A stretch of 64,000 nucleotides of DNA, taken from the NCBI GenBank assembly GCA_003225055.1, contig QIAU01000156.1:1-64000 (forward strand). The letters run 5' to 3'. The translations under genes and the position numbers were made by a program. This DNA is from Acidobacteriota bacterium (GTDB lineage: Bacteria; Acidobacteriota; Terriglobia; Terriglobales; Acidobacteriaceae). The notes beneath the pieces are model-generated. The model made no database searches. It saw only the letters and a program-made list of their open reading frames with translations, and was not told where the DNA came from. This document shows positions 1-30,121 of the stretch, one piece after another (within the stretch, counting starts at the first letter, position 1; every line of letters begins with the position of its first letter).

Positions 1-502
1 ACGGGCATTCCAGCGCGCCAAGCTCGTCGCGATTGCGAGGACAGAACGTCCAGGGCCGATCCACCCTGAGATCCTCGGCGAGACGGTACAACAGCCGCTT
101 GTCACAACCCCAGCGCAACACTTTCCAGTGCGGCGTGGTGAGACGATAGAATTCGGAAAGCAACGCATGATGACGCGCGATCAGCATGACCGTGTCATCC
201 GACGTCGGGAACACTGCCCATCCTGCCACTCCTTCTTTGATTGCTAAGTTGACGAGGAAATCGAGTTGCTTGCGGCTTTCCTCCGAAGATGGAGAAGACA
301 GGCTGCGAGTAGCGTATCGAGAGGCTGCACCCAGCATTTGCCCATCCTGCTTTATCACCCAAACCGGTATCCCCCGACGGCCCAGGCTGCGGACGATCCC
401 CAGCCCTCGGTAGTCGGCGCCTGTGACTAGGGCTCCCTCGCAAGTGCCCTTGCGCTGGCTGGCGAGAGGTTTCGGAGGCGTGCTTAAAGCCGGGGATTGC
501 AT
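1..502 (-). CDS. ATP-grasp ligase, N-terminal part (cut by window edge)
   Basis: Reading the minus strand from an ATG at 502 gives an open frame of 167 codons that runs off the window. The protein begins with a pre-ATP-grasp fold: LVTGADYRGLGIVRSLGRRG near residue 25, then a SRYATRS segment, a WAVFPTSDD segment and CDKRLLYRLAEDL. That layout matches the N-terminal domain of ATP-grasp carboxylate-amine ligases found in cell-surface polysaccharide clusters. Members join a carboxylate to an amine through an acyl phosphate; the ATP-binding domain itself lies outside the window. It follows the SGNH gene by 12 bases and so is likely the next gene of the same operon. Substrate is unknown. An amide on the uronic acid or an aminoacyl decoration is an inference from context only. 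Confidence 0.8.
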   Translation of the reverse strand, partial: MQSPALSTPPKPLASQRKGTCEGALVTGADYRGLGIVRSLGRRGIPVWVIKQDGQMLGAASRYATRSLSSPSSEESRKQLDFLVNLAIKEGVAGWAVFPTSDDTVMLIARHHALLSEFYRLTTPHWKVLRWGCDKRLLYRLAEDLRVDRPWTFCPRNRDELGALECP

Positions 503-514
503 AAACTCAGCCCC

Positions 515-1444
515 TCAGAGTCGGCTCTGTTGGGTTAGTGAGGAATGATCGGTTACAACCTTCTTAGAAAGGTCATCGGCCAGCGCGGATGTGAAGCGCA
601 CTGCGCCTTCGGGATTCAGATGGACGCGATCTCTCAGGTAGAAACTTTCTGGCAGAACGGTAGGATCAATCGGGACCAACGCATCCACTCCGGCTCTCTG
701 TGCTGCCAGGGCCATCCGGTGAACCGCAGTTTCCGAAGACGGAGTCGGAGGAATCACGACCATCAGTTTGGCGCCATGCTTGGCGCATAATTCACGGAGA
801 CTCTCGAGCCGGGATTTTAGCATTGCCTCAAGCTCCGGATCCTGCGAAGCGTTTTGATCGGATCGAACGAAGGGAAAAAGGTCTTCGTAATGGGGAACCA
901 GGCTACGGAGAACCCGCCTTCGAAAGAAGGTGCGCATCCCCCAAAACGCGCTCACATGGGAAAGTAAGACGTTGCTGGCAGCTGTGTGATCCAGCCCCAA
1001 GTCGGAAGCTACGTCGAGGATGTCCTTGGCGTCTAACAGCAACATGGGCGACTCCTCCCACACGCCATGGACGAGAGCACTATTCACTTCAAGACCGACC
1101 ACGACGACCTGGGGTCTTGCTCCCTGGCGAAACAGGCGACGAAGCCCATAGAGCCAGTCGTAGTAGCCCGTTCCTTCCAAGAAGATTGGATAGATCCGCA
1201 TGTTTTCCCATGTCCGCTGTCGAAGCCGGTCAACATCGACGCCATGCAGAAGCAAAGAATTTCCCACCATAAGGACGGAGGTTGGTTCTCCCGCTCGAGC
1301 AGGGCGCACCTTCAAGGCTTCAGCGTATTGCCGCGATACGCGTCGAAAGGTCACCGAATAATTCTTCAATAGATAAACGGACGAAACCTCAAGCGCGATG
1401 ACCAGGATCGCGCAAATACCGACCAGAATCTTGGCGTAGCGCAG
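515..1444 (-). CDS. SGNH/AlgJ-like O-acetyltransferase partner
   Basis: The protein has one N-terminal membrane helix (ILVGICAILVIALEV) and then an SGNH-hydrolase-like domain. Block I reads VLMVGNSLL, with Ser after Asn, and the C-terminal catalytic dyad appears as DRVHLNPEGA (DxxH). Such proteins (AlgJ, AlgX, DltD-like) take acyl groups delivered by a membrane-bound MBOAT protein and put them on polysaccharide in the periplasm. It lies directly downstream of an MBOAT gene, which supports that pairing. The start is uncertain. The frame is open back to ATGs at 1549 and 1606, but both lie well inside the MBOAT gene. The coordinate given uses a CTG at 1444 that follows a GAGG sequence overlapping the MBOAT stop; a TTG at 1369 would cut into the membrane helix. 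Confidence 0.75.
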   Translation of the reverse strand: MRYAKILVGICAILVIALEVSSVYLLKNYSVTFRRVSRQYAEALKVRPARAGEPTSVLMVGNSLLLHGVDVDRLRQRTWENMRIYPIFLEGTGYYDWLYGLRRLFRQGARPQVVVVGLEVNSALVHGVWEESPMLLLDAKDILDVASDLGLDHTAASNVLLSHVSAFWGMRTFFRRRVLRSLVPHYEDLFPFVRSDQNASQDPELEAMLKSRLESLRELCAKHGAKLMVVIPPTPSSETAVHRMALAAQRAGVDALVPIDPTVLPESFYLRDRVHLNPEGAVRFTSALADDLSKKVVTDHSSLTQQSRL

Positions 1445-1454
1445 GGAGGTAGCC

Positions 1455-2864: not shown

Positions 2865-2891
2865 GACCTTAGATCGGATTCAGTCTTCGGT

Positions 2892-4211
2892 TTAAGTTTG
2901 TGGAGGGGCGCTGTTAGGCGGATAAGAGGCTGCGCTCTCGTGAAAAGCTCTGGTTTCGCTGACCGCAATGTTGGCAGCTGGCCGCCTGGTCTGAGGGAGG
3001 CGGGCTGGAACCTGTCTGTACGGGGCCAGGCGCACAGGTCCGCTCGTCTCAAGTATCCTCTCCCGGAGCGCGTTGGAGGAGAATTCCGTGCCCGCCACGA
3101 ACTTCATCAGCGGTCCGAAACTCCACGCTGCGGGGGCTCCCAGAAAGTGCAGGCCGGACAAGGAGCTCTCCAATCCCGCGTCCAGACGCGGATAACCATG
3201 GACGAGGTCTAGCCGCCTAAGAACCTCTGGCGGAAGGAACGGATAGAGCGCAAGGTTGACCCGATAGCCGGTCCCGAGAACGACATGATCGACAATACGT
3301 TCATCTTCGTCACTCAATCGAAGGTGGAGACGCTCTCCCTCGATTCGCACTTGGTCCACCAATGCGTTGGTATGAATGGTTACATTCTGGGTACGAGGTT
3401 TGAGCCAGGCAGCCCCCGCCGGACGCACGGCTCTCGCCCCCGACCAATCTTGAATTCGACGCGGCAAGCGGCGGAACAGATCCGGTCGCTGGATTGCCAG
3501 GCTAACCCCAGCCGGACCTATGCCGCCGCGCCCATAAAACATCCACGCAAGGCGCTTCGAGCTCATCCACTGGTGGCGCCCAAGCCAATGAACCTTCGAA
3601 TTGCGAACCAGCACTTCGACATAGGCTCCCGCTTCCGACAAGAGGGCGGCTGTCTCCAGGGCGCTTTGTCCACCTCCTATGACGAGAACTTCCTTGCCGC
3701 GGAATTTGTCAAAATCCCTGTGCTCGGACGCGTGGGCTACCAGAGATGACGGAAGGCGAGCGAATATTTTTGGGCGATGGGCAAAGAATTGTATGCCTGC
3801 TGCTACCACAACACGACGTGCAAACCATGGTTCGCCGTTTTCGAGCTCAAGCTGATATCCGGCAGGAGCCGGCTGGATTCGCATGACCTTCCGCCGATCG
3901 GGTGACAGCTTCGCCTGCTCACCGAACCAGTGCCCGTAACGGATAAATTCCTCGAGCGGCAGTGGCTCCGCCAGGTGACCGTTTCCGTTCACGTTCCGGT
4001 ACGCGTCCAGCGTCAATCGATTCTCCGGATCGGCAATATGCGAGCCGTCCCAAGGAGAGCGGAGAAGCATCGCCTCGGGCATATGCCGCTCCCAGAACGA
4101 CATGGTTTCCCCAAAAAGTCTTACCTCCAATCCTTTCACGGACGCGAGATGGGCGGCCGCAGATAAGCCGTACGGGCCGGCGCCCACGATGGCTACGTCA
4201 CATTTTTCCAT
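2892..4211 (-). CDS. FAD/NAD(P)-dependent flavoprotein (monooxygenase-like)
   Basis: A 439-aa two-dinucleotide-fold flavoprotein. The FAD Rossmann motif is VAIVGAGPYGLSAA at residues 6-19. A second, NAD(P)H-type motif VLVIGGGQSALETAALL starts near 175, and an ATG-like motif VLGTGYRVNL lies near 335. This arrangement matches flavin-containing monooxygenase and N-hydroxylase-like proteins, as well as unassigned acidobacterial NAD(P)-binding oxidoreductases. The substrate cannot be read from the sequence. It sits 27 bases upstream of the MBOAT gene and downstream of a methyltransferase, so it belongs to the tailoring end of the polysaccharide operon. It could oxidise a sugar, a lipid carrier or an amine. 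Confidence 0.85.
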   Translation of the reverse strand: MEKCDVAIVGAGPYGLSAAAHLASVKGLEVRLFGETMSFWERHMPEAMLLRSPWDGSHIADPENRLTLDAYRNVNGNGHLAEPLPLEEFIRYGHWFGEQAKLSPDRRKVMRIQPAPAGYQLELENGEPWFARRVVVAAGIQFFAHRPKIFARLPSSLVAHASEHRDFDKFRGKEVLVIGGGQSALETAALLSEAGAYVEVLVRNSKVHWLGRHQWMSSKRLAWMFYGRGGIGPAGVSLAIQRPDLFRRLPRRIQDWSGARAVRPAGAAWLKPRTQNVTIHTNALVDQVRIEGERLHLRLSDEDERIVDHVVLGTGYRVNLALYPFLPPEVLRRLDLVHGYPRLDAGLESSLSGLHFLGAPAAWSFGPLMKFVAGTEFSSNALRERILETSGPVRLAPYRQVPARLPQTRRPAANIAVSETRAFHESAASYPPNSAPPQT

Positions 4212-4359
4212 TTGATTTCTATCCTCTGAGAAGCTGCCTTCGACCTGGTTCCCTCAGTTGACGAGATCAAAGAGCGAATCTGGCAGAACTCTCTCTATGT
4301 GGTTGGAGGGGACGAAAAATTGGTGAGCTTTCACGAAGTCATTCCGTGTGGCCACCGGT

Positions 4360-5055
4360 TCATTTTGCCAGCACGAAAAGTGTGTACCCGCCCAGCAGGC
4401 GTACGGCGAAGTCCTTGTGCAACGAGAAAAAGAAGGCGCGAGGCAACTGGCGAATCTTCTCTTTGATTTTGCTCGACCGGTAGATGGAGCGCGGCGCGTA
4501 GAACCAATCCACAATTTCATAATGCTCGTCGCGCAGGGTCTGAAGCACGGTGTCCTTGGTGAAGAAGTGAAGATCCTCAAGCAGCCGTCGGCGCTTGGTC
4601 AGGCCATCTTTTGTCAGGAGCGTGTATACCGACAGATCGAGGACCTGGTGGAAAAGTTTGTAGGTTGCAAGCGCCTTTATGTCACGCAGGAAGCTGAAAT
4701 AGTTCTCCTGGTGTTCCAGGACGTCCAGGACCAGAAGTAGGTCGAAAAATGCATTGGGTTCCTTGGTGACATCCGCTAATTGGAAGTGGAGCCGTTCGTT
4801 CTGGCGGCTTCGGCAGAGCTCGATTGCCGCCGGCGCGATGTCATATCCGAAGAAGAGGCATTCCGGATCCATCTGAAGCTGTAATTGCCTGAGTACCTCT
4901 CCGGCGCCGCAGCCGACCTCGCCAATCGTGTGCGGCGAAAGGCAGTTGCGTTTGGTCATCTCGAGGACGCCTTTTGCCTTCCAGGAAGAATCTTCCGTGT
5001 GCCATTGAGGGATCTTTTCAAGATATTGGCCGCTTACAAAGACGTTGGTTGGCAT
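4360..5055 (-). CDS. SAM-dependent methyltransferase
   Basis: A 231-aa class I methyltransferase. Motif I is IGEVGCGAGEVLRQL near residues 45-59, the acidic end of strand 2 is FFGYDIAPAAIELC, and LLLVLDVLEHQENYF near 109-123 is motif IV/post-motif with the DVLEH seen in the Methyltransf_11/23 group. No membrane segment is present. Its place between the YVTN-propeller gene and the flavoprotein suggests polysaccharide or precursor methylation, but the acceptor is unknown. Upstream 5056-5190 is short and carries no other gene. Confidence 0.88.
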   Translation of the reverse strand: MPTNVFVSGQYLEKIPQWHTEDSSWKAKGVLEMTKRNCLSPHTIGEVGCGAGEVLRQLQLQMDPECLFFGYDIAPAAIELCRSRQNERLHFQLADVTKEPNAFFDLLLVLDVLEHQENYFSFLRDIKALATYKLFHQVLDLSVYTLLTKDGLTKRRRLLEDLHFFTKDTVLQTLRDEHYEIVDWFYAPRSIYRSSKIKEKIRQLPRAFFFSLHKDFAVRLLGGYTLFVLAK

Positions 5056-5190
5056 GTTTTTCTCGATTGTTTTTGTGTATGCCTTTGCGGCTCAGATTTA
5101 CGGAAGAACTCCGCTTTTCGAAGAGCGGCAGAAGCGCCGTGTGGGCCGCTTCGGGCCCTGTGGCTCATTGAAAACGCTGGTCTTGATCGG

Positions 5191-6249
5191 CTAGCGGCAT
5201 GCGACCGCCCCCGGCTGAGGCAAGATGGCAAGACCCTCAGGCAGCACCGTAACCCCGCGTACCGTATCGACGACAGCGTTGGTCGCGGTGTTGATGACTG
5301 AAACGGTGCTGTCGACTTCATTGGTCACATAGGCAAAAGCCCCGTCCGGAGTGATCGCCACGCCGCGAGGGGTTAGCCCCACTGGAACAATGCTGACCAC
5401 GGTGTTTGTGCTGGTGTCGATCACGGATACGTTCTCGGTCTGATCGTTCGCAACATAGGCAAAAGCCCCATTGGGCGTAATGGCTATGTCCACGGGGTCG
5501 TTCCCGACCGCCACCGTGGCTACCACGGTGTTAGTGGCGGTATCGATTACCGAGACGTTGTTTCCAAGATAGTTGGTTACATAGGCGAAGGCCCCGTTTG
5601 GGGTAATGGCTACGCCGGCCGGGCTCGCTCCCACTGGCACGGCGGCCACCACGGTGTTAGTGGCCGTGTCGATCACGGAAACGTTGTTCGAACCCGAGTT
5701 CGATACATAGGCAAAAGCCCCGTTTGGCGTGATGCCTACGCGCCAGGGGCCGGTTCCCACGGCGACCGTAGTCGTGACTGTGTTGGTGCCTGTGTTGATC
5801 ACCGAAACATCGTTGGAGCCCAGGTTGGCTACATAGGCGGAGGCCCCGTTTGGCGTGATGGCCAGGCCCGCCGGGTATCCTCCTACTGGGATAGTCGTCA
5901 CCACGGCATTGGTGGCCGTGTTGATCACGGAAACTGAGTTCGAAGTTATCAAACCGAGATGTGTCGTATTGACCACATAGGCGAAAGCTCCGTTCGGGGT
6001 GATAGCTACACGAAGGGGCTGATTCCCCACCGGAACCATCGCCACCAACTGATTGGTGAGCGAGTTAAATACCGAAACCGAGTTTGTCTCGCGATTCGCC
6101 ACGTAGACGTTGCACTGAGCCGCCGCCACAGCACATCCCAGCCCCATCAGCAACAGCAGCTCCAGATACCGACGTGGCCGTAACGGGCTCGGCTTCTGGT
6201 CTTGATTCTTGGTCGTGGATTCCGAAGATAAAGCTCGCTTGTGAAGCAT
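5191..6249 (-). CDS. Secreted YVTN-family beta-propeller protein
   Basis: A 352-aa protein with a basic N-terminus, a hydrophobic stretch LELLLLMGLGCAVAAAQC near residues 29-46 (signal peptide, possibly a lipobox-like ending), then seven blades of about 42 aa. Each blade has the pattern ITPNGAFAYV...NNVSVIDTATNTVV...VPVG.P. This is the YVTN/surface-layer-type propeller. It is probably periplasmic or surface exposed and binding rather than catalytic; no active-site residues are evident. The start is well supported by GGAGAAAA just upstream of the ATG at 6249. Being inside the polysaccharide operon, it may bind the polymer or act in surface attachment; this is an inference. Confidence 0.9.
   Translation of the reverse strand: MLHKRALSSESTTKNQDQKPSPLRPRRYLELLLLMGLGCAVAAAQCNVYVANRETNSVSVFNSLTNQLVAMVPVGNQPLRVAITPNGAFAYVVNTTHLGLITSNSVSVINTATNAVVTTIPVGGYPAGLAITPNGASAYVANLGSNDVSVINTGTNTVTTTVAVGTGPWRVGITPNGAFAYVSNSGSNNVSVIDTATNTVVAAVPVGASPAGVAITPNGAFAYVTNYLGNNVSVIDTATNTVVATVAVGNDPVDIAITPNGAFAYVANDQTENVSVIDTSTNTVVSIVPVGLTPRGVAITPDGAFAYVTNEVDSTVSVINTATNAVVDTVRGVTVLPEGLAILPQPGAVACR
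5230..6130 (-). repeat. Tandem 126-bp coding repeats (propeller blades)
   Basis: The blades are encoded by nearly regular 126-bp units: the motif ataggcaaaagcccc-like recurs at about 5331, 5457, 5583 and 5709, with variants onward to about 6110. DNA similarity between the central units is high enough that recombination or assembly collapse could change blade number. Confidence 0.85.
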
Positions 6250-6295
6250 TTGTTTTCTCCTTCGCGGTTGCCCGCTAATAAATCAACCCTTCAGG

Positions 6296-6315
6296 CTCCC
6301 TTGTCATCAAGGGAG
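6296..6315. promoter_or_regulatory. Perfect inverted repeat upstream of the YVTN gene
   Basis: The arms ctcccttg (6296-6303) and caagggag (6308-6315) are exact reverse complements with a 4-nt loop. It lies between the YdcF-like gene (ends 6390) and the YVTN start (6249). No T-tract follows on the minus strand, so a standard intrinsic terminator is unlikely. An RNA-stability hairpin, operator or attenuator are the remaining options. Confidence 0.5.
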
Positions 6316-6389
6316 GTCCTCTGCGCTTTCCTCATTCAGAAAGGGGGTTATCTAACGCAACGAGGGGAACACCTTAATGTGGATCTCAA

Positions 6390-7118
6390 CTAGCGAAATA
6401 CGCCCACAGTACAACCCCACGCACCGAAGCGAGCTTCGGCGTCTCGCGCCCCGCTTGGGATTCGGGGATTTGAGCTCCCGTGGAATAGAACCCAGAGCTT
6501 CGAGTACCCATAACCTGCGAGGCTGCGAACAAAGATCCAGATTCCCCTGGACGACAAAAACCAGAGCCTGTTCCGATCGTAAGGGACTTCGGATCCGGAG
6601 ATGATGCCGACCCGATAGTAGTCGCCCAGGGCGCTTTGAAAAAACACCCAGGTCTTTCTGGCATGTACTCCTACTGTGAACACGTCTACGCAGCAGGCCG
6701 CGATCCCGGAGCTGTCAAGCCAACGCTTAACCTCTGTCGCGCTGGTGAGCGTACGGAGACCGGCCGGTTCCGCCGGGACGCTGATCTTAACCAGCTTCTT
6801 AGAGTCAAATCCGAGCTCTTTGAGTCTGGCCGCGGCCAGATCAGCATAGGTCAGGGGATGATCGGACGCGCTGCCGTTCACTTCCACCGGCCCACCCACT
6901 ACGACGAGGTGACTGTAATGCCGCGAATTAAAGAAGTTCGCGGATTCGGCCAATGCACAGGCAGGAATCCAGCCCTCCACCACCAGGACTCCTTTTCCGA
7001 CCGGATGGTTTACGGCAAGAAAGTCGTGCGTGAACACGGTGCCGAAAACCAGAATCACACAGGCCATCCCGAATAGGAACCAATTGGAGCGTAAGACGCG
7101 ACGCCCGTTTTTCTCCAT
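6390..7118 (-). CDS. YdcF/SanA-like (DUF218) membrane-anchored protein
   Basis: A 242-aa protein with one N-terminal membrane helix (WFLFGMACVILVFGTVF), then a DUF218-like domain: VLVVEGWIP near 48, HYSHLVVVGGPVEV near 70, and a later TSATEVKRWL and VFTVGVHARKTW. ElyC/SanA/YdcF proteins are envelope proteins of poorly known biochemistry, linked to peptidoglycan and envelope integrity. The frame is open to a TTG at 7142, but the ATG at 7118 gives the better N-terminus. It sits between two secreted-protein genes in the polysaccharide operon and may act on lipid carrier or polymer in the periplasm. Confidence 0.72.
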   Translation of the reverse strand: MEKNGRRVLRSNWFLFGMACVILVFGTVFTHDFLAVNHPVGKGVLVVEGWIPACALAESANFFNSRHYSHLVVVGGPVEVNGSASDHPLTYADLAAARLKELGFDSKKLVKISVPAEPAGLRTLTSATEVKRWLDSSGIAACCVDVFTVGVHARKTWVFFQSALGDYYRVGIISGSEVPYDRNRLWFLSSRGIWIFVRSLAGYGYSKLWVLFHGSSNPRIPSGARDAEARFGAWGCTVGVFR

Positions 7119-7186
7119 GCCGGCTTTAGTCAAGTATTCCAACCTTTGGCGGGCCAGTGTTGTATCTGCCGCGAAGGGGGATCGGG

Positions 7187-8800
7187 TTAATTACCGGAGC
7201 ACGGCCTCGGCGGCGAGCACTCTCCCACGCCAAGGTTGCTGCTATTTCCATTGAGGATATTTCCCATTCCTAGGTTCGTGGTGGGATCGGAGACGACGAT
7301 GCCGCCTGAATTGAAGGTGCCGGTGAGGATATTGTTGTTCACACAGGCGTTGGGTGACAGAATCCACAAACCGGCTTCCCCTGGTCCGTCAATATTGGCC
7401 CCCGCCACAGAGGCGTTGGAACCAGCAATGAGGATCACCGGTTCGACGTCGTTAGTTCCCGTGAGAGTGCCGCCGTGGATGGTCACGTGGCTGTCTTGTC
7501 CCAAACCAAGAGCGTCGTCTGAGCTGACATAGAATTGGGTGTTTCCGTTGCCCGCCACCCAACAGTTGTTGAAGGTGTTGTACTGGTTGAAATTGCCGAA
7601 ACTATTGATCCCCGCATTACCGGTACCTGTGCCGGTGCCCGCGCCGTTGTTGGTTACAACGCAGTTGTTGAACGTATTGTGCGAGGAATAATAGTTCAGG
7701 GTGACTCCGTTGTTGGCACTGGCACTGTTCTTAACCGTCAGAGAGTTGAAAGTGTTCCAGCGCGCGGCGGTGGTCTTGAACGGCCGTCCATAAGCTCCCA
7801 TGGCATCCACTGTGACGTGGCTGAACCTGCCATTGGCTACGGCATACGCGCCCAGTCCGAAGGCGCCGTTAGCGAGGCAGCCAGTACCCATCCCGGGATT
7901 CTCTTGGGAGATCGACATTCCATACACCCTGAGGTTTCCTGCGACATACAGGTTCACCGCGTCTCCACAACTTGCGCTGCCGGCTTGGGCCACACTGATG
8001 TTGCTATAGGACAAGTTGAAGGAGCCGGAGCTGTAAACGGCTGCCCCTTGCACGTTTCTTACGGTGACGCCCTGAACCTGGGACTCCACCACTCCATTCA
8101 TCTCGAATCCCAGGAGTAGATCTTGATTTCCCTCCAAGATGATGTTTTTCACCGTGATGCCGGTGAGTGGGTTGAGCATCTTTTCAGCGGCGGCGGCATT
8201 CACCGACGGATCGTAGGTATCATGCAACGCCGTGGTGACCTCGATCCTGTTTTCGTCGACACTCTGAACCTTGAGAATTTCTCCTCGACAGGCTGACGCA
8301 TCGCAGTTGGTAGGATGGCCGGGCGGGGTGTCAGTCGAATAGTCAAGGCCTCCCTGGTGAATGTAAACGTAGTCGCCAGGGCCGACTCCGAGACTTGAAA
8401 CGGTTGTAAAGCTGGTTGCCAGTTCGTTCGCCGTCGCGCTGAGCGCCACGGCGGGGCCATAGGACGGCATGGTAGTTTCATTGGCGCCGATCACGAGGAC
8501 CGCCGATGTCCCAGAGCCAGCGTCATGGATCGTGGCGCAACCCGAGCCATCGATGGTCACGCTCGAAACGCTGATGAGAAGTTGAGATGTGGTCAGATAC
8601 GTTCCACAGGGAAACAGCAGTGTGTCGCCCGGGGCCAGGGCGGCAATGGCACGGTTAATTGCAGTAGTGTCGTCGGTCGTTCCGTTTCCCACTGCGCCAT
8701 ATGCCGAAACATCCCGTATAGCTGCTTGAGACATGGATAGGCCAAGAAACAGAACGAAGAAAGTGACAAGGCAGCTTTTTTTAGAGTTCTCAGCGATCAT
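7187..8800 (-). CDS. Secreted right-handed beta-helix protein (pectate-lyase superfamily)
   Basis: A 537-aa protein with signal peptide (LVTFFVLFLGLSMSQA near 11-26). It is followed immediately by the pectate_lyase_3 signature DVSAYGAVGNGTTDDTTAIN and by many short beta-helix coils rich in N, G, S and V, for example NTFNSLTVKNSASANN, NTFNNCVVTNNGAG and NTFNNCWVAGNGN. Proteins of this fold in polysaccharide loci are lyases, epimerases or tail-spike-like depolymerases. The Asp pair is seen, but no complete catalytic set can be assigned by eye. It may trim, epimerise or bind the polymer made by this cluster. The C-terminus ends in a short Cys/Pro-containing tail. Confidence 0.85.
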   Translation of the reverse strand: MIAENSKKSCLVTFFVLFLGLSMSQAAIRDVSAYGAVGNGTTDDTTAINRAIAALAPGDTLLFPCGTYLTTSQLLISVSSVTIDGSGCATIHDAGSGTSAVLVIGANETTMPSYGPAVALSATANELATSFTTVSSLGVGPGDYVYIHQGGLDYSTDTPPGHPTNCDASACRGEILKVQSVDENRIEVTTALHDTYDPSVNAAAAEKMLNPLTGITVKNIILEGNQDLLLGFEMNGVVESQVQGVTVRNVQGAAVYSSGSFNLSYSNISVAQAGSASCGDAVNLYVAGNLRVYGMSISQENPGMGTGCLANGAFGLGAYAVANGRFSHVTVDAMGAYGRPFKTTAARWNTFNSLTVKNSASANNGVTLNYYSSHNTFNNCVVTNNGAGTGTGTGNAGINSFGNFNQYNTFNNCWVAGNGNTQFYVSSDDALGLGQDSHVTIHGGTLTGTNDVEPVILIAGSNASVAGANIDGPGEAGLWILSPNACVNNNILTGTFNSGGIVVSDPTTNLGMGNILNGNSSNLGVGECSPPRPCSGN

Positions 8801-8871
8801 CTTTCTATCTCGTTTCTATCTCGCATTCAAAGGTTGTAATGGTTGGGAGTGAGGTGAGGTTTTTGTAAGAC

Positions 8872-10860: not shown

Positions 10861-10934
10861 TGGCAACACTCCTCAACTGCATGGTAGGTTCTGGACAAAG
10901 ATTCTGGTGTTTTCCCAAGGCCGCGATGTTTTCT

Positions 10935-12260: not shown

Positions 12261-12265
12261 GGTTG

Positions 12266-17355: not shown

Positions 17356-17356
17356 C

Positions 17357-18844: not shown

Positions 18845-18855
18845 GGGAAGAGAAT

Positions 18856-22307: not shown

Positions 22308-22371
22308 TGACGACCTCTCGCTTTAGGTGTGATTCCGGGAGTCAAAGATAACATCGCATGGGGATAGCGCC

Positions 22372-23355
22372 CTACGGTATGCGCCAGATGGCCATGCCGG
22401 TAGCCATATTCAAGATCGCTTCCGCCCCGCGTTTGGCAGCACTCTTCCCGGCGCTGCCGGGAACGAACACGATGTCGTCGGCTTGGAGCGGCATATCAGG
22501 AGCCTTCGCAGACAAAATCTTCTTAAGCGAAAGCGGGATTTCCTTTGGGCCTTCTGGTGTTTTGCGGATAAGCCGGGCCGCATTCAGGGACGCATTTGGG
22601 TTCGTGCCTTGAGCCAGGGCGATGGCCTGCAGTACGGTGAGGTCTTTGCCGTTTTCCATGACGAACCCCCCCGGCAAGTGAACATCGCCCACGACATAAA
22701 CAATTCCCGCCCGGCTTACCACAACCGTGTCACCAGGCCTTATGGCGGTATTATTCTCCACTGAATCAGGGCCACCTGAAGGGAGTGGCACCCGAACGGG
22801 ATGTTGCGTATCGTTGCGATGGGTGATGACCACTTCCCGCCCTGCCTTCGGTGTGGTGCCCCCGGCGGTGGAGAGGACATCCGACAGACTTCGTGGGCCC
22901 AGGAGGGGATAAATTCCCGGCTTCTGCACCTCGCCCAGCACCGTGATCCCCTGGGTAGCATAGTCTTTCACGAAAATTGCGATGTGAGGGTCGTTAAAGA
23001 GTCCCTTCTGCTTAAGCTGCTCGGCAATAACCTTCTCTGCCTTTTCGAGGGAAAGCCCTCCCACGGCCACCGAACCGAGCATGGGCAAGGTGATCTGGCC
23101 GGCTGAATTGATGCGCACGTCGGTCTTGAAATCCGGCATCCCGTACAGGTTGACCTCTAGCAGATCGCCAGAGCCAAGAATCAAATCCGGCGACGCTAGG
23201 TTGTTGGACTCGGCGAAGGTTGACGTCGGAGATCGAGGCGCGCTGGTGGCGGGAGGGCGAACTTCCGGCGCATCGACCCGTCTCTGGGCGAGGCCGTGCG
23301 TCGCCACCAGAGCCACAAAAACGAGCCTAGTGATAAAGAAAGTCTTGGATTTCAT
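22372..23355 (-). CDS. Polysaccharide export outer-membrane protein (Wza/GumB-like)
   Basis: The start is ATG 23355 (MKSKTFFITRLVFVALVATHGLAQ), giving a clean signal peptide; the open frame to 23595 overlaps the neighbouring gene and is not used. The poly_export domain begins near residue 55 (ILGSGDLLEVNLYGMPDFKTDVRINSAG region). Two SLBB domains follow (GITVLGEVQKPGIYPLLG near 140; GIVYVVGDVHLPGGFVMENG near 215). At 327 aa it lacks a long C-terminal amphipathic extension. It should form the outer-membrane/periplasmic channel that works with the Wzc protein encoded in the same operon. Confidence 0.94.
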   Translation of the reverse strand: MKSKTFFITRLVFVALVATHGLAQRRVDAPEVRPPATSAPRSPTSTFAESNNLASPDLILGSGDLLEVNLYGMPDFKTDVRINSAGQITLPMLGSVAVGGLSLEKAEKVIAEQLKQKGLFNDPHIAIFVKDYATQGITVLGEVQKPGIYPLLGPRSLSDVLSTAGGTTPKAGREVVITHRNDTQHPVRVPLPSGGPDSVENNTAIRPGDTVVVSRAGIVYVVGDVHLPGGFVMENGKDLTVLQAIALAQGTNPNASLNAARLIRKTPEGPKEIPLSLKKILSAKAPDMPLQADDIVFVPGSAGKSAAKRGAEAILNMATGMAIWRIP

Positions 23356-23401
23356 AACCAACTCCAATAACTGGCTATCCCTCTGCCGAAGGGCGTGACC
23401 T

Positions 23402-23998
23402 CTACGCCGCAATCGGAACTGCGGCGCCCTCCGCAACCCGCAATCGACCCTGCCCGTCTTTCTCGTAGACTTGTCCACAGCGGCAGCGAAGGGAATTCCG
23501 CAATTTGCTGCCGCACAGACACATATAACCGACCCTGCGGGCGGGGTTACCGACCACGATGGCAAAATCATCAACGTCCTTGGTGACCACGGCACCGGCG
23601 CCGACGAAGGCGTGACGGCCGATGGTTATCCCGCAAATCAGGGTGGCATTGGCGCCAATCGAAGCACCTTGGCATACCCGGGTTGGCAGAAACTCGCGGC
23701 GGTTCTTTCGCACCGCCGCGCGGGGATTCTTGTCGTTGGTGAAGACGGCGAACGGACCAACGAACACCAGGTCTTCGAGCACCACACCGTCCCATAGGGC
23801 GACGCCGTTCTTGACCGTCACTCGGTCTCCGACGACTACGTTCGATTCCACAAAGACGTGATCGCAGAGATTGCAGTTCTCGCCGACCCGCGCTCCTTCC
23901 ATCACGTGGGTGAACGCCCAGATGCGAGTGCCCCTGCCGATCCGGGACGACTCAACCACGGCAAAAGGATGTTTAAAGTAGTTCAGTTTTTCCAGCAT
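23402..23998 (-). CDS. Left-handed beta-helix N-acetyltransferase (WbpD-like)
   Basis: A 198-aa hexapeptide-repeat protein; the ATG at 23998 is preferred over a TTG at 24004. Repeats include SSRIGRGTRIWAFTHVMEGARV, NVVVGDRVTVKNGVALWDGV and the catalytic-type loop FVGPFAVFTNDKNPRA near 80-95, which is diagnostic of the UDP-2-acetamido-3-amino-glucuronate N-acetyltransferase group (WbpD/WlbB). The tail carries a CLCG...CRCG cluster that could bind zinc. With the DegT aminotransferase and the Gfo/Idh enzyme of this operon it would complete the diacetamido-uronic acid pathway. Confidence 0.88.
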   Translation of the reverse strand: MLEKLNYFKHPFAVVESSRIGRGTRIWAFTHVMEGARVGENCNLCDHVFVESNVVVGDRVTVKNGVALWDGVVLEDLVFVGPFAVFTNDKNPRAAVRKNRREFLPTRVCQGASIGANATLICGITIGRHAFVGAGAVVTKDVDDFAIVVGNPARRVGYMCLCGSKLRNSLRCRCGQVYEKDGQGRLRVAEGAAVPIAA

Positions 23999-24010
23999 TC
24001 TCAATTGGCC

Positions 24011-24772
24011 TCAGTGTCCCGTGCCGAGCAATACGGTTGGAATTGTTTTTGCAAGAAGTTTGAAATCTAAGCCGATGGACCAACGGCGCAGGTATGCGAT
24101 GTCAAGGCGAACCATATCTTCAAAGGACAAACGGTTACGTCCACTTACCTGCCATAGGCCAGTGAGACCCGGCGGCGCTTGGAGGCGCTCCTCATGCCAG
24201 GGCGCATAGTTCTCGACCTCGTAGGGGAGAGCTGGCCGGGGGCCTACCAGGCTCATATCCAACTTCAGAACGTTGAACAGCTGTGGCAGTTCGTCCAGGC
24301 TGTACCGCCGCAAAATGGCGCCCATCCTTGTCACGCGCGGATCATTGACCAGCTTAAATACGCTCCCGTTTTCTGCGGGGCGATTGTCCATCCAGTCCTT
24401 TATGTAAGCGCGGTGCATCCCGTCACTCGCGCCCCAGTACATGGTGCGGAACTTAAAGAACTTGAATGGCCGCCCCTTGTAACCAATTCTGTTCTGCACG
24501 ATGATGGCCGGGCCTTTCGAGTCCAACCGAATCGCCAGCCAGATCACCGCCATCAGCGGCAGCGCGACCAGCACGAGAAGAAATCCCAATAGGAAGTCAA
24601 TCGCTTGCTTGGAACGAAGCTTTGCGCCAGTTAGCGCGCAGGGCCTCGGGCGAACCGAAACTTGCTTGTCGATAACCCGCGTCGCTCCGGTAAGCGATAT
24701 TTCCTGAAATGGCGCGGTGTTCAGCTGTAAGCCGGGGGTGAACTCGGAGCGATTCTGGTCAAGATTTTCCAT
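24011..24772 (-). CDS. Initiating polyprenyl-phosphate sugar-phosphate transferase
   Basis: A 253-aa member of the bacterial sugar transferase family. It has a single membrane helix [19 protein letters not shown], followed by [49 protein letters not shown] and VGPRPALP. These are the family signatures, so this is the phosphoglycosyl transferase that starts each repeat unit on undecaprenyl phosphate. It is of the short form, lacking the multi-helix N-terminal half of WbaP/WcaJ. The ATG at 24772 with GGACCAGG upstream is preferred over a TTG at 24877. Confidence 0.93.
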
Positions 24773-24926
24773 ACCTGGTCCATGAATACTTGAAACGGCG
24801 CCCTTGGGTGCCGCGGTAATAAAGCAGAATGAATCGTGGATCGCTGTTGTAGGGGCAAGGACGGTGACTGAAGTCAAAGCTTGGAGCCGCAGTGAAGTCG
24901 CACGTTCTGTTATCAGTCTCGAGTCG

Positions 24927-26087
24927 TCATTCGGAGCGGCCTAAGGAACGCATCAGCTGTTCCGCCACGTACTCGACTTCGTAGGTGCGCAGCTCTGGGA
25001 AGATGGGGAGGGAAAGAATGGTTGAAGCGCAGGCTTCGGCGCGCGGGAAGTCTCCCTTTGCGTAATCGAACGACGACATCGCGGGCTGGAGATGCAGCGG
25101 GATGGGATAGTGTATGCCGGTCGATACACCCGCCGCTGCCAGTCGCTTCTGAACGCTATCGCGTCCGGCAACGCGTACTACGTAGAGGTGATACGAGTGT
25201 TGCCGTCCCGGCCGCTCCTGCGGGGTAACTACGGAAGAACCTGCCAGAAGTCGATCGTATTGCGCTGCAATCCGGCGGCGTCGATCGATCCAATCGTCGA
25301 GATGAGCCAACTTAATGGAAAGAACGGCGGCCTGGAGGGCATGTAAACGGTGGTTGTAGCCCGGCGCTTCATGTCGGTATTTGCTGCTACTTCCGTGATC
25401 ACGCAGCAGCTTGAGCTTGTCTGCGAGCGCAGCGTCATTCGTCGTAACCGCGCCTCCCTCCCCGTATGCACCGAGGTTCTTCGAAGGATAGAAGCTGAAA
25501 CATGTCGCTCGGCTGATCGATCCCACCCGGCGATCCCCGAACGTGGCGCCGTGTGCCTGGCAGGCATCTTCGATCATCACCAGCCCACGCGATGCCGCAA
25601 TACCGGCGACGATATCCAAGTCAGCAGGCTGGCCATAGAGATCGACAACTATGATGGCCTTGGTGCGCGCAGTGAGGCGACCGAGCACGTCGTCTGGATC
25701 CAGGTTGTACGAAGTATCGCAAATATCGGCAAAAACCGGCGTAGCCCCGACGGCGAGTACCGCTTCGGCCGTGGCAATGAAAGTGTTAACCGGAACAATC
25801 ACCTCATCGCCGCTGCCAACGCCGAGGGCACGCAAGGTCAGTTCCAGTGCGGAGGTGCCAGAAGACAAGCCGACACAATAATCGGCGCCTACGTAGGCTG
25901 CGAACTGGTGCTCAAATCGAGAAACGTACGGTTCTCCCACGAAAATTCCTTGTTCCAGCACGCCGGCAATGGCGCGGTCGATTTCATCATGGATCGCGCG
26001 GTATTGCCGGCGTAGATCAAAGAAGGGAACGGTCAGTGCCTCCGGAGTGGGCGGAACCGTGGTCTGGAACTGAGAATGAGTGCCCAT
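24927..26087 (-). CDS. DegT/DnrJ/EryC1 sugar aminotransferase (WbpE-like)
   Basis: A 386-aa PLP enzyme. The Schiff-base lysine is K203 in SFYPSKNLGAYGEGGAV. The PLP-ring Asp is in IEDACQAHG near 172-180, and GTSALELTL near 77 binds phosphate. The family aminates 3- or 4-keto sugar nucleotides. Placed between the Gfo/Idh dehydrogenase and the WbpD-like acetyltransferase, it most likely converts the 3-keto uronate to the 3-amino form. Length and motifs are complete. Confidence 0.92.
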   Translation of the reverse strand: MGTHSQFQTTVPPTPEALTVPFFDLRRQYRAIHDEIDRAIAGVLEQGIFVGEPYVSRFEHQFAAYVGADYCVGLSSGTSALELTLRALGVGSGDEVIVPVNTFIATAEAVLAVGATPVFADICDTSYNLDPDDVLGRLTARTKAIIVVDLYGQPADLDIVAGIAASRGLVMIEDACQAHGATFGDRRVGSISRATCFSFYPSKNLGAYGEGGAVTTNDAALADKLKLLRDHGSSSKYRHEAPGYNHRLHALQAAVLSIKLAHLDDWIDRRRRIAAQYDRLLAGSSVVTPQERPGRQHSYHLYVVRVAGRDSVQKRLAAAGVSTGIHYPIPLHLQPAMSSFDYAKGDFPRAEACASTILSLPIFPELRTYEVEYVAEQLMRSLGRSE

Positions 26088-26103
26088 GGAATTTTCGCGA
26101 AAC

Positions 26104-27177
26104 TTAGGGGAGTGTGGGAGGAACGAATTCAGGTGGAGCCTGAGCGAGTTCCGCTGCCGGCATCGGAGCGGGAACCGCGCAATAGTCGATGGTCATGACT
26201 TGTCCGTTGCTGCGCATGGAATTCGATGCAGCCTCGAGCGCGAGTACGACGTTTAACCCCGTCTGCCCGTCGGTCTCCGGTTGCGCCCCGCTTTCCACAC
26301 AGTCCAGGAAATGATTGATTTCAATGAGGAGTGGCTCGGTAGCACTGAGATTGGGAGAAACAATCTCGCCCGTACGATACGTCAACTGATACTCCCCGAA
26401 CGACTCTGGCGTCCTCAAGTCCACGCCCTTGTCGTACAGCTTGACCTTCTCGGCAAGATTCGTGTCATCGTAAATCAGCATACTACGGCTGCCGACCAGT
26501 ACTGTCCGACGCAGCTTGCTGGGCGCCAGCCAGCTTACCTCCAAGTTGGCCAGGATTCCCGAGGGAAAGCGGTAGTGGACACTGGCAATATCGGGCAGGC
26601 TGCCGACGCAGCTTCGGCCGATTGCGGAAACGCACGATGGATTCTCTTCCAGCCAATAGAGCAGGATGGATAGGTCATGTGGCGCCAAGTCCCACAACAC
26701 GTCGATGTCTTTCTGGTGAATGCCGAGATTTACGCGCGAGGAACTGAGAAAGTAGATGTCGCCCAGAATGCCGTCGCGAATGTATTCCTTTACCTTCCTC
26801 ACGGCGGGACTGTATACGAACGTGTGACCCACCATCAGAGTCAAATCCTTGTCGCCAGCCAATTCCGCCAGTTCTCTCGCCTGCAACGACGATATCGCCA
26901 GCGGCTTCTCGACCAGGACGGCCTTACCGCGCTCCAGAATTCTCTTGGCAATATCGTAGTGGGTGCTGACCGGTGTGGCGACCACGAGCGCGTCACAGCG
27001 ATGAATGATGTCGTCCAGGTGTTCTACCGGAGAAACACACGGAAATCGTCGCAACACTCTTGCCAACGCAGCCGGCGACGGATCACAACAGAAGATCTGG
27101 CTACAACGGTTCGTTTCCACTGCCGAGCGCACCAGGTTAGGACCCCAGTAGCCGCAGCCAATCACTCCGAGCTTCAA
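26104..27177 (-). CDS. Gfo/Idh/MocA sugar-nucleotide dehydrogenase (WbpB/WlbA-like)
   Basis: The frame is open to a GTG at 27201, but a strong GGGAGGG precedes a TTG at 27177 by about six bases. That start gives MKLGVIGCGYWGPNLVR, the usual family N-terminus, and a 357-aa protein. The NAD motif GVIGCGYWG, the EKP motif in VLVEKPLAI and the catalytic segment VLWDLAPHDLSILLYWL near 170-186 are all present. WbpB/WlbA oxidises UDP-N-acetyl-glucuronate at C3. The upstream 6-dehydrogenase (WbpA) is not in this window. The next gene in the operon is the matching aminotransferase. Confidence 0.88.
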   Translation of the reverse strand: MKLGVIGCGYWGPNLVRSAVETNRCSQIFCCDPSPAALARVLRRFPCVSPVEHLDDIIHRCDALVVATPVSTHYDIAKRILERGKAVLVEKPLAISSLQARELAELAGDKDLTLMVGHTFVYSPAVRKVKEYIRDGILGDIYFLSSSRVNLGIHQKDIDVLWDLAPHDLSILLYWLEENPSCVSAIGRSCVGSLPDIASVHYRFPSGILANLEVSWLAPSKLRRTVLVGSRSMLIYDDTNLAEKVKLYDKGVDLRTPESFGEYQLTYRTGEIVSPNLSATEPLLIEINHFLDCVESGAQPETDGQTGLNVVLALEAASNSMRSNGQVMTIDYCAVPAPMPAAELAQAPPEFVPPTLP

Positions 27178-27246
27178 GATACACCCTCCCGATTTTTTCA
27201 CCCGTTACTGGGCTGTGAGAGATACAACCAGGTATGCCCTCGACCG

Positions 27247-29484
27247 TTACGCAACTGCGTCAGGACGGTTGGTTTCGTGCTGGCTGTAGTACCCGTAGTA
27301 GTGGCGGAAGTCCGATGAACTGAGTTCGGCGGCGTTTAGCACGAAGCCAGTGAGGTGGGCATTGACCCTCAGAAGTAAATCCTGTGCGCGCAAGAATGCG
27401 TCCTTCACGATGTGACCGGAGCGAACAACCAGAATCACCGAATCGGCTTCGACCGACATGCGAACGGCATCTGTCAGCGGCAGCACCGGTGGAGTGTCCA
27501 CGATGATGTGATCGAATTGCCCGCGCCACCCCTCGAGCAGGTCCTTGAAACGGGCAACCAGCAATTCGGTATCTTCGGGCAGCGAGACTTTTCCTGCGGT
27601 CAGGATGAACAGATTGGGCAACTCGGCGCAACGGATCACGGCGTCTTCAAAGGGAGCGGAATTGCTGAGCAGCGCTGTCAGACCAATGGTGCTGGTCAGT
27701 TGCATGGCACGGTGGACACTGGGCCGGCGCAGATCCCCATCCACGAGCAGGACGCGCCTGCCCAATCGCGCCAGAGCAATGGCAGTGTTCATCGCTACCG
27801 TGGTCTTGCCTTCGGAGGGAAGCGCGCTGGTCATCATGATCACGGCCGGGGGAGTCGGGCGTGAAAGCAGGATCGAGGTCAGCAAAGCGCGGTACGATTC
27901 CGCCGCCGGCGATAATGGTTGCAAGAAACTCACCAACTCAGGTTTGGAGGCCGTCTGGGGGACGTTGCCTTCGACGAGCGACTGATTGGCGCTTCCTTCC
28001 AAGAGCGGCACGACGCCGAGCGCAGGCAGGGGCGACAAGATTTGCGCCTGCTCCAAGGTGCTAATCGGCTCGTGCATCTTCGCCAGGCCAAACGCCAGCA
28101 GTACACCCCCGACAAGTCCGAACCCAACCGAGAGCCCAAAGTTCCTGGGAACATTTGGCTCGGAGGGCCGCTTGGGTGGTTGCGCCGGATCAATGACGCG
28201 GAGGCCGCTCAACTTCAAGGTCGCTGAAATGCCCAATTCTTTCTGCTTCTCGAGCAGATCCTCGTAGAGCTTCCGATTGGTATCAACGTCCCGCTTCAGG
28301 ATGTTGTACTGGATCGCATTTGCGTTCAGTGTGTCAGCTGCCTGTTTCTGCGTTTCCAACGCATTGCGCAGCATGCGTTCACGCTCTAGCGCCATGCGAT
28401 ATTCATTGGTCATGCGTTCGCGGGTTCGCTTGACTTCGGAGCGAATGGACCTGCGCGTCTGGGCGAGCTGGTTGGAGAGTTCGCGAATTTTCGGATGGGT
28501 CGGGCCCAATTGAACTGAGGCCTGGGCAAGCTGCATCTGCAAGTCTGCCTCTTGGGCGCGCAGCTTGGTGACCAGGTTGTCCGGCTCCGATTTGGCAATC
28601 AACTCGGGTTGCGAGGATGGCGTCAATCGGTAGGTCGCCTCTTTCTGCATCCGATCGGCTTCTGCAGCCGTGAGTTCCTTGTTCAAGTCATCGAGTTTTG
28701 CCGTCACAATGTTCTGCTTGTCATCCAGACCAAAAATCCCATTTCGATTCTGATAATCAACTAACTTCTGCTGCGATTCTTCTACCTTAGCTTTCAGATC
28801 GGTCAGTTGATTCAAGAGGAACTGAGATAGCTGATTGCTCGCGTACAACTGACTCGAATAGTTTCGGTCGACGTACGCTTTCGTCACATAGTTCACGACG
28901 TCGGCTGCCAACCGCGGGTCAGTCGCGCGAAACTTAATCTCGATGAGACGCGTGCCTCTAACATTGGAAATGGCGAGATTTTTGTGAAAGGCCCGCACCA
29001 GGCTGTCTTCGTTACCTGGCTCTATCTTGCCGCCGTCGAACTTTCCGTTTTCGAGGTGAAGATCGTGGATGACCTGCGAAGCCAATCCATCGCTCTCGAG
29101 GATGCCGATCTGAGTGTTGATGGCCGCCCGCTCGTCGGCATCTTCCGGCAGTGACGAACCGGGGCCCTTGAACCCCAACACCCCGGCGCCCTCGTCCTCG
29201 CGGAAAAACAGCACTCTCCCGACTGCGTCGTAGCGTGGCTTCATCAGGAAAGAAGCGGTCATAACGGTTGAGACAACCATGACGGCAAATGCGGCGATAA
29301 TCTTCTTGCGGCTTCGGACGACGCGCCATAAGTTGCCGAGGAAGGTTTCCTCCAGCGCCTCTACCACCTTCTGGGTATAGCGGTTGGGGAGACCCGGCTT
29401 GAGGTTTGGCGGAGTCTGGACAAGGGTCTGGGCCGCGGAATCCGGTGCCGGTTCGCCGGTCAGTTCGAAATACCTGGTCATTGC
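27247..29484 (-). CDS. Wzc-like polysaccharide co-polymerase with tyrosine autokinase
   Basis: A 745-aa protein (ATG 29484 preferred; a TTG lies at 29508). It contains a Wzz domain with a first membrane helix IIAAFAVMVVSTVMTASFL near residue 45, a long coiled-coil periplasmic part, a GNVR-like segment and second helix near 430-460. The BY-kinase domain then shows Walker A MTSALPSEGKTTVAMN, Walker A' VLLVDGDLRRP and Walker B HIIVDTPPV. The C-terminus has a YYGYY tyrosine cluster, the usual autophosphorylation site. It controls chain length and gates export with Wza. The fused kinase is of the proteobacterial arrangement. Confidence 0.94.
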   Translation of the reverse strand, partial: AMTRYFELTGEPAPDSAAQTLVQTPPNLKPGLPNRYTQKVVEALEETFLGNLWRVVRSRKKIIAAFAVMVVSTVMTASFLMKPRYDAVGRVLFFREDEGAGVLGFKGPGSSLPEDADERAAINTQIGILESDGLASQVIHDLHLENGKFDGGKIEPGNEDSLVRAFHKNLAISNVRGTRLIEIKFRATDPRLAADVVNYVTKAYVDRNYSSQLYASNQLSQFLLNQLTDLKAKVEESQQKLVDYQNRNGIFGLDDKQNIVTAKLDDLNKELTAAEADRMQKEATYRLTPSSQPELIAKSEPDNLVTKLRAQEADLQMQLAQASVQLGPTHPKIRELSNQLAQTRRSIRSEVKRTRERMTNEYRMALERERMLRNALETQKQAADTLNANAIQYNILKRDVDTNRKLYEDLLEKQKELGISATLKLSGLRVIDPAQPPKRPSEPNVPRNFGLSVGFGLVGGVLLAFGLAKMHEPISTLEQAQILSPLPALGVVPLLEGSANQSLVEGNVPQTASKPELVSFLQPLSPAAESYRALLTSILLSRPTPPAVIMMTSALPSEGKTTVAMNTAIALARLGRRVLLVDGDLRRPSVHRAMQLTSTIGLTALLSNSAPFEDAVIRCAELPNLFILTAGKVSLPEDTELLVARFKDLLEGWRGQFDHIIVDTPPVLPLTDAVRMSVEADSVILVVRSGHIVKDAFLRAQDLLLRVNAHLTGFVLNAAELSSSDFRHYYGYYSQHETNRPDAVA

Positions 29485-29569
29485 TTCTCGTTGCGCGCTG
29501 GATGACAAGAGACTCTGGTTCTTCCTTCTGGGGGATTCAGGGCGCTGGTTTCGATGGCCGACCGCGAAA

Positions 29570-30121
29570 TCAAACCGGCACCACGTTGTAACCCTGCAAA
29601 CTGATCGACAGAGACCTCTCGATGGTTTCCACCGAAATTACTAAGCGCCTCTCGCCGTGGCAGTCGACTAATGTGCCTTCCACACCGTCGAGACACCCTC
29701 CGCAGATTCTCACCCGCTGGCCAACTTTTGGGAAAGAATGCAGCGCGAAGGGCACGTCGCATGCCAACAAAGTTCGAACCGCCTCGATTTGGCTGGCGGG
29801 AATCGCCTCGGCCTGCTTGTGCGGTCCAACAAACGCCAGCACTCCCCACACCTGCAGCACCGCTAACCGCACGGCTGGGCTTAGAGCGGTGGAGACAAAT
29901 ACATAGCCGGGAAATAGCGGGACTCGCACTATCTTGGAGCGATCTGTCCAACGATGTACTTGCGCCAGTAGTGGCAAGTAGCTGGCAATGCCTTTTTGCT
30001 CCAATTCGACTGCGACCTTCTTCTCATGCCTGGGACGCGTTTGCAGCGCGTACCAGTGAGCTTGCCCCAAAGCTGCGGCCGGCATGAGCCCCGGTACCGA
30101 TATTTGTCCTATGCTACTCAT
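29570..30121 (-). CDS. NusG-like specialised antiterminator (RfaH/UpxY type)
   Basis: A 183-aa protein. The frame is open to 30448 but the ATG at 30121 starts the domain correctly. The NGN domain begins at HWYALQTRPRHEKKVAVELEQKG, with PLFPGYVFVST near 72. The KOW motif is GQRVRICGGCLDGVEGTLV near 135-153. NusG paralogues at the head of long polysaccharide operons keep RNA polymerase elongating through them. Its position as first gene before a roughly 30-kb minus-strand run fits that role. The housekeeping nusG would lie in a secE/rplK context, which is absent here. Confidence 0.9.
   Translation of the reverse strand: MSSIGQISVPGLMPAAALGQAHWYALQTRPRHEKKVAVELEQKGIASYLPLLAQVHRWTDRSKIVRVPLFPGYVFVSTALSPAVRLAVLQVWGVLAFVGPHKQAEAIPASQIEAVRTLLACDVPFALHSFPKVGQRVRICGGCLDGVEGTLVDCHGERRLVISVETIERSLSISLQGYNVVPV

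Follow-up and report, generated by a model that had tools for sequence, protein, structure and literature searches.

Which polymer is made from a long gene cluster that carries a complete exopolysaccharide (EPS) assembly set together with an AsnB-type amidotransferase, an MBOAT/SGNH pair, a methyltransferase and a flavin adenine dinucleotide (FAD) enzyme, and do these modification genes belong with the assembly genes? The question is raised by positions 1–30121 of the 64,000-nucleotide stretch analysed here (the window), which is contig C85:1–64000 of the 7.4-Mb draft genome of an Acidobacteriota bacterium (G000). On the minus strand, 23 genes cover ~97% of 1–30121, with a largest gap of 148 bp and overlaps in three neighbouring pairs; the order starts with an UpxY-type NusG antiterminator, continues through Wzc, Wza, Wzx and Wzy, and ends at an ATP-grasp gene. 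This agrees with an initial annotation, made from the sequence without database searches, that had described all genes from the NusG-like factor to the ATP-grasp ligase as running on one strand with small gaps or overlaps. Taken as a whole, the data are best explained by a mosaic Wzx/Wzy exopolysaccharide locus of a soil acidobacterium, a reading that we consider likely and in which the substrates and reactions of all enzymes are predicted from their families.

Assembly genes of the locus

Families were assigned by Pfam and NCBIfam profile searches. The first gene, a NusG paralogue (29570–30121, start codon ATG at 30121; PF02357, 2.4e-19), scored above the cut-off of the UpxY antiterminator model NF033644 (112.2 bits, cut-off 100) and stands at the head of the putative polysaccharide operon. 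Export and chain-length control are represented by a Wzc-type regulator and tyrosine autokinase (27247–29508; Wzz, GNVR and AAA_31 domains; TIGR01007, 143.6 bits, above cut-off) and by the outer-membrane export protein Wza (22372–23358, start approximate; Poly_export PF02563 and SLBB; TIGR03028 EpsE, 152.5 bits, below cut-off). The initiating polyprenyl-phosphate sugar phosphotransferase (PGT, 24011–24877) matched PF02397 (Bac_transf, 3.5e-60) and stayed below the cut-off of TIGR03025 (264.6 against 295.6 bits). Both the Wzy polymerase (17357–18844; PF04932 Wzy_C, 1.4e-11) and the Wzx flippase (14336–15646, start approximate; PF13440 Polysacc_synt_3, 9.6e-10) exceeded their gathering cut-offs, and two GT4 glycosyltransferases were found, one at 15643–17379 (PF13692, 2.2e-26; PF13439) and a TuaH-like one at 10935–12260 (PF13692, 2e-11; NF047676, 60 bits, below cut-off). 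As PGT, Wzc/BY-kinase, Wza, Wzx, Wzy and two GT4-type glycosyltransferases are all present, the locus is almost certainly a Wzx/Wzy exopolysaccharide locus, and the same assignment in the initial annotation is borne out by this complete assembly set.

Distribution and inheritance of the gene block

A bi-domain Zn-alcohol-dehydrogenase and Gfo/Idh/MocA oxidoreductase, a conserved core gene of the locus (18856–21069; PF00107, PF01408), was used as query against 84,980 species genomes, and the neighbourhoods of the matches were compared. The nearest named relatives of the locus were soil Acidobacteriota metagenome-assembled genomes (MAGs), and four other Acidobacteriota MAGs, G043 (gp3), G042 (gp5), and G045 and G041 (both gp13), carry the block with its order largely kept. 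On a single 39-kb contig, G043 follows the window's order of Wzc, Wza, an alpha/alpha-toroid protein, the bi-domain oxidoreductase, Wzy, GT4, Wzx, a heparinase-like protein, a glycosyltransferase and AsnB, and then of a DUF218-like protein, a YVTN propeller, the methyltransferase, the FAD enzyme, MBOAT and SGNH; it differs by a WbpA-like gene inserted between Wzc and Wza, and no beta-helix gene was found there. G042, G045 and G041 have parts of this order on shorter contigs with some rearrangement, and in G041 sugar genes lie on either side of MBOAT/SGNH. Identities to the four MAGs were 81–84% for AsnB, 75–81% for the bi-domain oxidoreductase, 75–78% for the glycosyltransferase, 64–72% for the heparinase-like protein, 67–75% for MBOAT and 79–84% for the methyltransferase. 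The stretch from AsnB to SGNH is a conserved neighbourhood, the beta-helix, DUF218 and ATP-grasp genes being more variable. In every relative examined, two distant genomes among them, the MBOAT gene has its SGNH-like partner next to it; MBOAT homologues at ~40% identity are too common in the phylum to bear on linkage. The initial annotation had held that the tailoring genes belong with the assembly genes. The two groups indeed travel together in these MAGs, and the closest homologues of the tailoring genes do not lie mostly outside polysaccharide loci, since four MAGs carry the block. In G045 (loci L061 and L078), AsnB and the heparinase-like protein each match as two adjacent pieces, suggesting frameshifts caused by sequencing error or decay.

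The similarity of the block does not follow the relatedness of the genomes. For rpoB, identity to the window's genome was 89–90% in G012 and G015 of the same family, 75% in G043, 74% in G042, and 79–82% over ~1000 residues in G045 and G041. The proteins from Wzc to SGNH show the reverse, with ~60–85% identity in the distant Acidobacteriota MAGs versus 39–69% in same-family genomes. Wzc, Wza, the toroid, the bi-domain oxidoreductase, Wzy, GT4, Wzx, the heparinase-like protein, the glycosyltransferase and AsnB were, ten out of ten, closer to G043 (61–81%) than to G012 (39–68%; AsnB 68, bi-domain 61, heparinase 49, Wzy 40, Wzx 43 and Wzc 39%). In an AsnB tree the window grouped with G043, G042 and G045 (support 98/92), while in the rpoB tree G000 grouped with G012 and G015 (support 100/100). 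The sugar cassette follows the opposite trend: its Gfo, DegT and acetyltransferase proteins were 65, 61 and 73% identical to G012 versus 41, 45 and 42% to G043, and the PGT was 54% identical to its G012 counterpart. From these comparisons, the assembly-and-modification block (Wzc, then Wza to SGNH) has very likely moved horizontally between distant Acidobacteriota. The inversion relative to rpoB, together with the opposite trend of the sugar cassette, points to a mosaic, and the simplest reading would be that a transferred block was combined with a sugar-making and priming cassette of separate inheritance (Gfo, DegT, PGT and acetyltransferase). The block is probably accessory within the genus, because the congener G001 gave just a 27% match to the heparinase-like protein.

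Mis-binning as the cause of the inversion was considered and is disfavoured by one flanking gene. An ABC transporter on the same contig (60135–62078) shared 83% identity with its counterparts in the congener G001 and G015, versus 56–60% for its larger N-terminal segment and 68–76% for its C-terminal segment in G042, G043 and G045; as it is closest to its own family, the contig appears native. Several points weigh against this account of transfer. A second flanking gene (34290–35594) was less clear, with 57, 56 and 50% identity in the family versus 52% and 65% (shorter segment) in G041/G045, so that a single flanking gene gave a clear result. The case also leans partly on MAG bins, several of the relatives are on broken contigs, and the gene-by-gene check is incomplete in each of them.

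Two other views of the locus have to be weighed against a single Wzx/Wzy unit. The region could consist of two head-to-tail units, an EPS operon from NusG to AsnB and an adjacent small-molecule or surface-protein operon from the beta-helix to the ATP-grasp gene. The largest gaps within the locus, 135–148 bp, do sit around the methyltransferase, YVTN and DUF218 genes, and some relatives gave no match for the beta-helix, DUF218, methyltransferase or FAD gene. Moreover, homologues of the FAD enzyme have an ATP-grasp gene next to them or nearby in the loci L168, L172 and probably L173 (where the ATP-grasp assignment comes from a weak BLAST match), and in L172 and L173 the pair has no EPS neighbours. 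However, the distant locus L168 unites both genes with AsnB, bi-domain and heparinase genes, G043 keeps the order and adjacency from AsnB to SGNH except for the beta-helix, and G045 largely does so; we therefore regard two units as unlikely. Membership in the exosortase A (XrtA/PEP-CTERM) class of EPS loci would account for the similarity to TIGR03108 and to the EpsE/EpsF families, and for a FemAB-like gene in the G043 locus. Yet all XrtA-specific models scored below their curated cut-offs (TIGR03108, 497 against 817 bits; TIGR03027, 84 against 180; TIGR03007, 127 against 279; TIGR03018, 102 against 231), and the only exosortase match in the window's genome (PF09721) is on contig C74, with none among the locus genes. 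Membership, which we give hardly any credence, was rejected on these grounds; the Wzx/Wzy locus is related to exosortase A loci without being a member.

The transcription of the locus was addressed with consensus scans. No minus-strand promoter-like site, of the kind that the initial annotation had named as potential evidence against one unit, was found inside 1–30 kb, and the minus-strand terminator-like sites were all within genes and fewer than in shuffles, which is weak evidence for a putative single transcription unit. An Rfam search gave no match, the 585-bp spacer 5' of the NusG gene (30122–30706) included, so no known leader RNA lies upstream of NusG. Beyond the spacer, a LuxR-type response regulator follows on the same strand; 30707–33682 encodes it together with another response regulator and a GGDEF protein. 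At the other end, the ATP-grasp fragment (2–502) is truncated at window base 1; since contig C85 begins there, the end of the locus is out of sight.

The sugar cassette and the amidotransferase

The enzymes between Wzc and Wza indicate the type of sugar that might be made. The DegT/DnrJ aminotransferase (24927–26087; PF01041, 2.2e-117) had its closest solved structures among sugar aminotransferases such as DesV (2oga), QdtB (1.7e-94) and WbpE (3.8e-88), which are C3-aminotransferases. For the hexapeptide N-acetyltransferase, which is WbpD/WlbB-like (23402–24004; PF00132), the best solved chain was 3mqg (E 5.7e-51), WlbB, which acts on the uronic acid. The Gfo/Idh/MocA protein, a predicted WbpB/GnnA-like sugar-nucleotide C3 dehydrogenase (26104–27201; PF01408, PF22725), could be placed at the family level only: it has the EKP motif, its nearest solved chain is 7bvj, which may be GnnA, and it scored 159 bits, below cut-off, with the UDP-GlcNAc 3-dehydrogenase model NF040723. 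Of the wbpB/E/D-like trio named in the initial annotation, E and D are thus well matched, while B holds at the family level. The AsnB-type amidotransferase, which is WbpS/eps_aminotran_1-like (8872–10869), combines an MCGI N-terminus with the class II glutaminase cysteine, a GATase domain and an Asn-synthase domain (PF00733, 9.9e-87), and matched TIGR03108 at 1.1e-148.

In the Wbp pathway, WbpA, WbpB, WbpE and WbpD yield UDP-2,3-diacetamido-glucuronic acid (PMC10622841), and in P. gingivalis a uronamide is formed on a sugar of this pathway in a WbpS-dependent manner (PMC7468200). With the P. aeruginosa and P. gingivalis Wbp and WbpS systems the locus shares the AsnB-type amidotransferase and the predicted treatment of a UDP-sugar, which would be oxidised and aminated at C3 and then 3-N-acetylated (PMC10622841, PMC7468200); it differs in that it lacks WbpA and has no WbpI assigned. 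WbpA-like nucleotide-sugar dehydrogenases were found inside the related loci of G043 (matching TIGR03026), L028 and G012, directly beside Gfo in the last. A 68% orthologue of the G043 enzyme is present in G000 on contig C73, with no other polysaccharide gene seen beside it in the 20 kb examined. Likewise, the G043 locus has a WecB-type epimerase near the FemAB-like gene, and their G000 counterparts are direct neighbours on contig C291. The AsnB orthologue of G012 directly adjoins the acetyltransferase and PGT, near DegT and Gfo, and this supports the same putative role, that of amidating a Wbp-type sugar, in the window as well.

The most likely product would be an O-acylated Wzx/Wzy polymer with a 2,3-diacetamido uronic acid or its amide. 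Judged from the gene families, the presence of the diacetamido uronic acid is slightly favoured, and that AsnB makes a uronamide has a little less than an even chance. Against both count the absence of a WbpA-type UDP-sugar 6-dehydrogenase and of a WbpI-type epimerase from the locus, the AsnB score below the curated cut-off for the XrtA amidotransferase, and the Gfo protein, which could be a GnnA-type UDP-GlcNAc 3-dehydrogenase leading to a neutral diacetamido sugar. In that case GnnA/GnnB-type enzymes and acetylation would give UDP-2,3-diacetamido-2,3-dideoxy-glucose, WbpA would be unneeded, and AsnB would amidate another acid or a non-sugar. The missing dehydrogenase and the NF040723 and 7bvj matches fit such a route, but WbpA-like genes occur in three related loci, G000 keeps an orthologue, and the acetyltransferase is closest to WlbB with its uronic-acid substrate; we consider a neutral sugar somewhat unlikely.

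If the uronic acid is made, the locus might work as follows. The UpxY-type NusG would carry RNA polymerase through the long operon. Starting with the UDP-sugar 6-dehydrogenase, encoded by an orphan gene outside the locus, the pathway would run through Gfo, DegT and the acetyltransferase to UDP-2,3-diacetamido-2,3-dideoxy-glucuronic acid; PGT would prime undecaprenyl phosphate and the glycosyltransferases would extend the chain, with AsnB amidating a uronic acid in a WbpS-like manner. Wzx would then flip and Wzy polymerise the repeat, Wzc and Wza would control length and export, MBOAT/SGNH would O-acylate in the periplasm, and the secreted beta-helix protein may trim the polymer.

Tailoring proteins and known systems

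The family calls of the initial annotation were confirmed and refined by the profile searches, with the toroid supported by AlphaFold and a fold search and the SGNH protein by motifs; its list had missed the DUF218-like gene, and its ATP-grasp ligase is the truncated fragment. The heparinase II/III-like protein (12266–14305) has both N- and C-terminal heparinase domains above cut-off (PF07940, 4.3e-38; PF16889, 1.9e-12) and conserves H232, Y284, H445 and H447. By inspection of aligned acidobacterial sequences no signal peptide was seen, so periplasmic clearing of polymer is not the obvious reading. Neither was a signal peptide seen in the bi-domain protein or in the toroid (21063–22307; AlphaFold predicted local distance difference test score, pLDDT, 84), a conserved core gene with 67–72% identity in the G043 and G042 loci. 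The toroid could not be tied to one enzyme: its distant Foldseek matches, with TM scores of ~0.5–0.6, included sugar 2-epimerases, GH76 and terpene cyclases, and a PDB profile search gave squalene-hopene cyclase repeats only. Across 29 further Acidobacteriota loci, the genes directly flanking it were often AsnB, WecB-like, bi-domain or PGT genes, and some loci of Bacteroidota and Verrucomicrobiota likewise have it beside or near the bi-domain gene. A second polysaccharide-type region of G000 (contig C177, locus L104, 127–9135) holds a heparinase fragment, a GT4 glycosyltransferase, a PHP-type protein, a WecB-type epimerase and a bi-domain oxidoreductase 44% identical to that of the window.

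The right-handed, pectate-lyase-like beta-helix protein (7187–8800; PF12708, 7.7e-11; a variable gene with a 62% homologue in G045) and the YVTN/lactonase (YNCE-type) propeller (5191–6249; PF10282, 1.6e-23; its G043 counterpart, in the equivalent position, is 75% identical) carry segments resembling signal peptides at their N-termini; a function as secreted processing or surface proteins is more likely for them than one as decorating enzymes. Between them lies a weakly assigned, DUF218-like membrane-anchored protein (6390–7142; PF02698, 4.7e-4, below cut-off), to which a protein encoded in the matching position of G043 is 58% identical. The S-adenosylmethionine-dependent methyltransferase (4360–5055; PF13847, 7.2e-10) was 84% identical in G043 and 79% in G045. 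The membrane MBOAT O-acyltransferase (1455–2864; PF03062, 8.9e-22) and the membrane-anchored SGNH-like protein that follows it (515–1438, start uncertain; GNS and DxxH motifs invariant in six sequences) resemble the AlgI/AlgJ, PatA/PatB and DltB/DltD pairs. The ATP-grasp fragment was 67–75% identical to a G045 open reading frame that matches PF15632 (ATPgrasp_Ter).

For the FAD/NADPH monooxygenase (2892–4211; PF13434, 48 bits, cut-off 21) the fold was predicted because the sequence-level PDB match was weak. With this model (pLDDT 74), the best Foldseek hit was the putrescine N-hydroxylase 7us3 (1.8e-20), followed by SidA and DfoA; FMO and YpdA structures scored almost equally. The protein resembles the flavin N-hydroxylases SidA, DfoA and FbsI in fold, in the GxGPxxL, GxGxSA and TGY motifs and in exceeding the PF13434 cut-off, but is ~17% identical to them and is encoded in a polysaccharide, not a siderophore, locus. 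It is possible that the FAD enzyme and the ATP-grasp protein form a functional pair of their own. That they make an N-hydroxylated (hydroxamate-type, metal-binding) substituent attached to the exopolysaccharide is very unlikely; if true, this would give the polymer a built-in chelator. The proposal of the initial annotation that all listed genes decorate one polymer thus stands as to their linkage with the assembly genes; its full extent is not supported, given the signal-like segments of the beta-helix and YVTN proteins, the heparinase and toroid proteins in which no signal peptide was seen, and the occurrence of the FAD gene beside an ATP-grasp gene outside polysaccharide loci.

AsnB and MBOAT genes are already known from other rich Wzx/Wzy clusters, of which Rubrivivax psc1 is the nearest one with genetics. 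Its 75 kb hold 63 genes, three of them for AsnB and two for MBOAT (PMC3684757), so the description of the present set as unusually rich was overstated. The locus shares Wza, Wzx, Wzy, a WbpS-like AsnB, MBOAT and many glycosyltransferases with the psc1 clusters of Rubrivivax gelatinosus and Thauera MZ1T, and Tn5 insertions in psc1 wza, wzx, wzy and asnB lower aggregation or biofilm formation (PMC3684757). In contrast, psc1 has PEP-CTERM/exosortase genes and FemAB, and in its Table 1 neither a heparinase nor a bi-domain/toroid pair nor a FAD N-hydroxylase-like gene appears (PMC3684757). A literature search found no characterised polymer with this gene set, acidobacterial or other, in line with the initial annotation. 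New are the particular co-inherited set, its apparent transfer among Acidobacteriota groups and a sugar cassette that is inherited separately.

Soil acidobacteria occur in large numbers and are rarely brought into culture. As AsnB, MBOAT/SGNH, the methyltransferase and the FAD enzyme appear to be co-inherited with the assembly genes across distant Acidobacteriota, these modification genes probably belong to the polymer. The locus also gives a context to the set of bi-domain oxidoreductase, alpha/alpha toroid and heparinase, parts of which are found again in polysaccharide loci from several phyla. Judging from the mosaic, the genes for sugar synthesis and priming may be exchanged among acidobacteria independently of the polymerisation and tailoring block.

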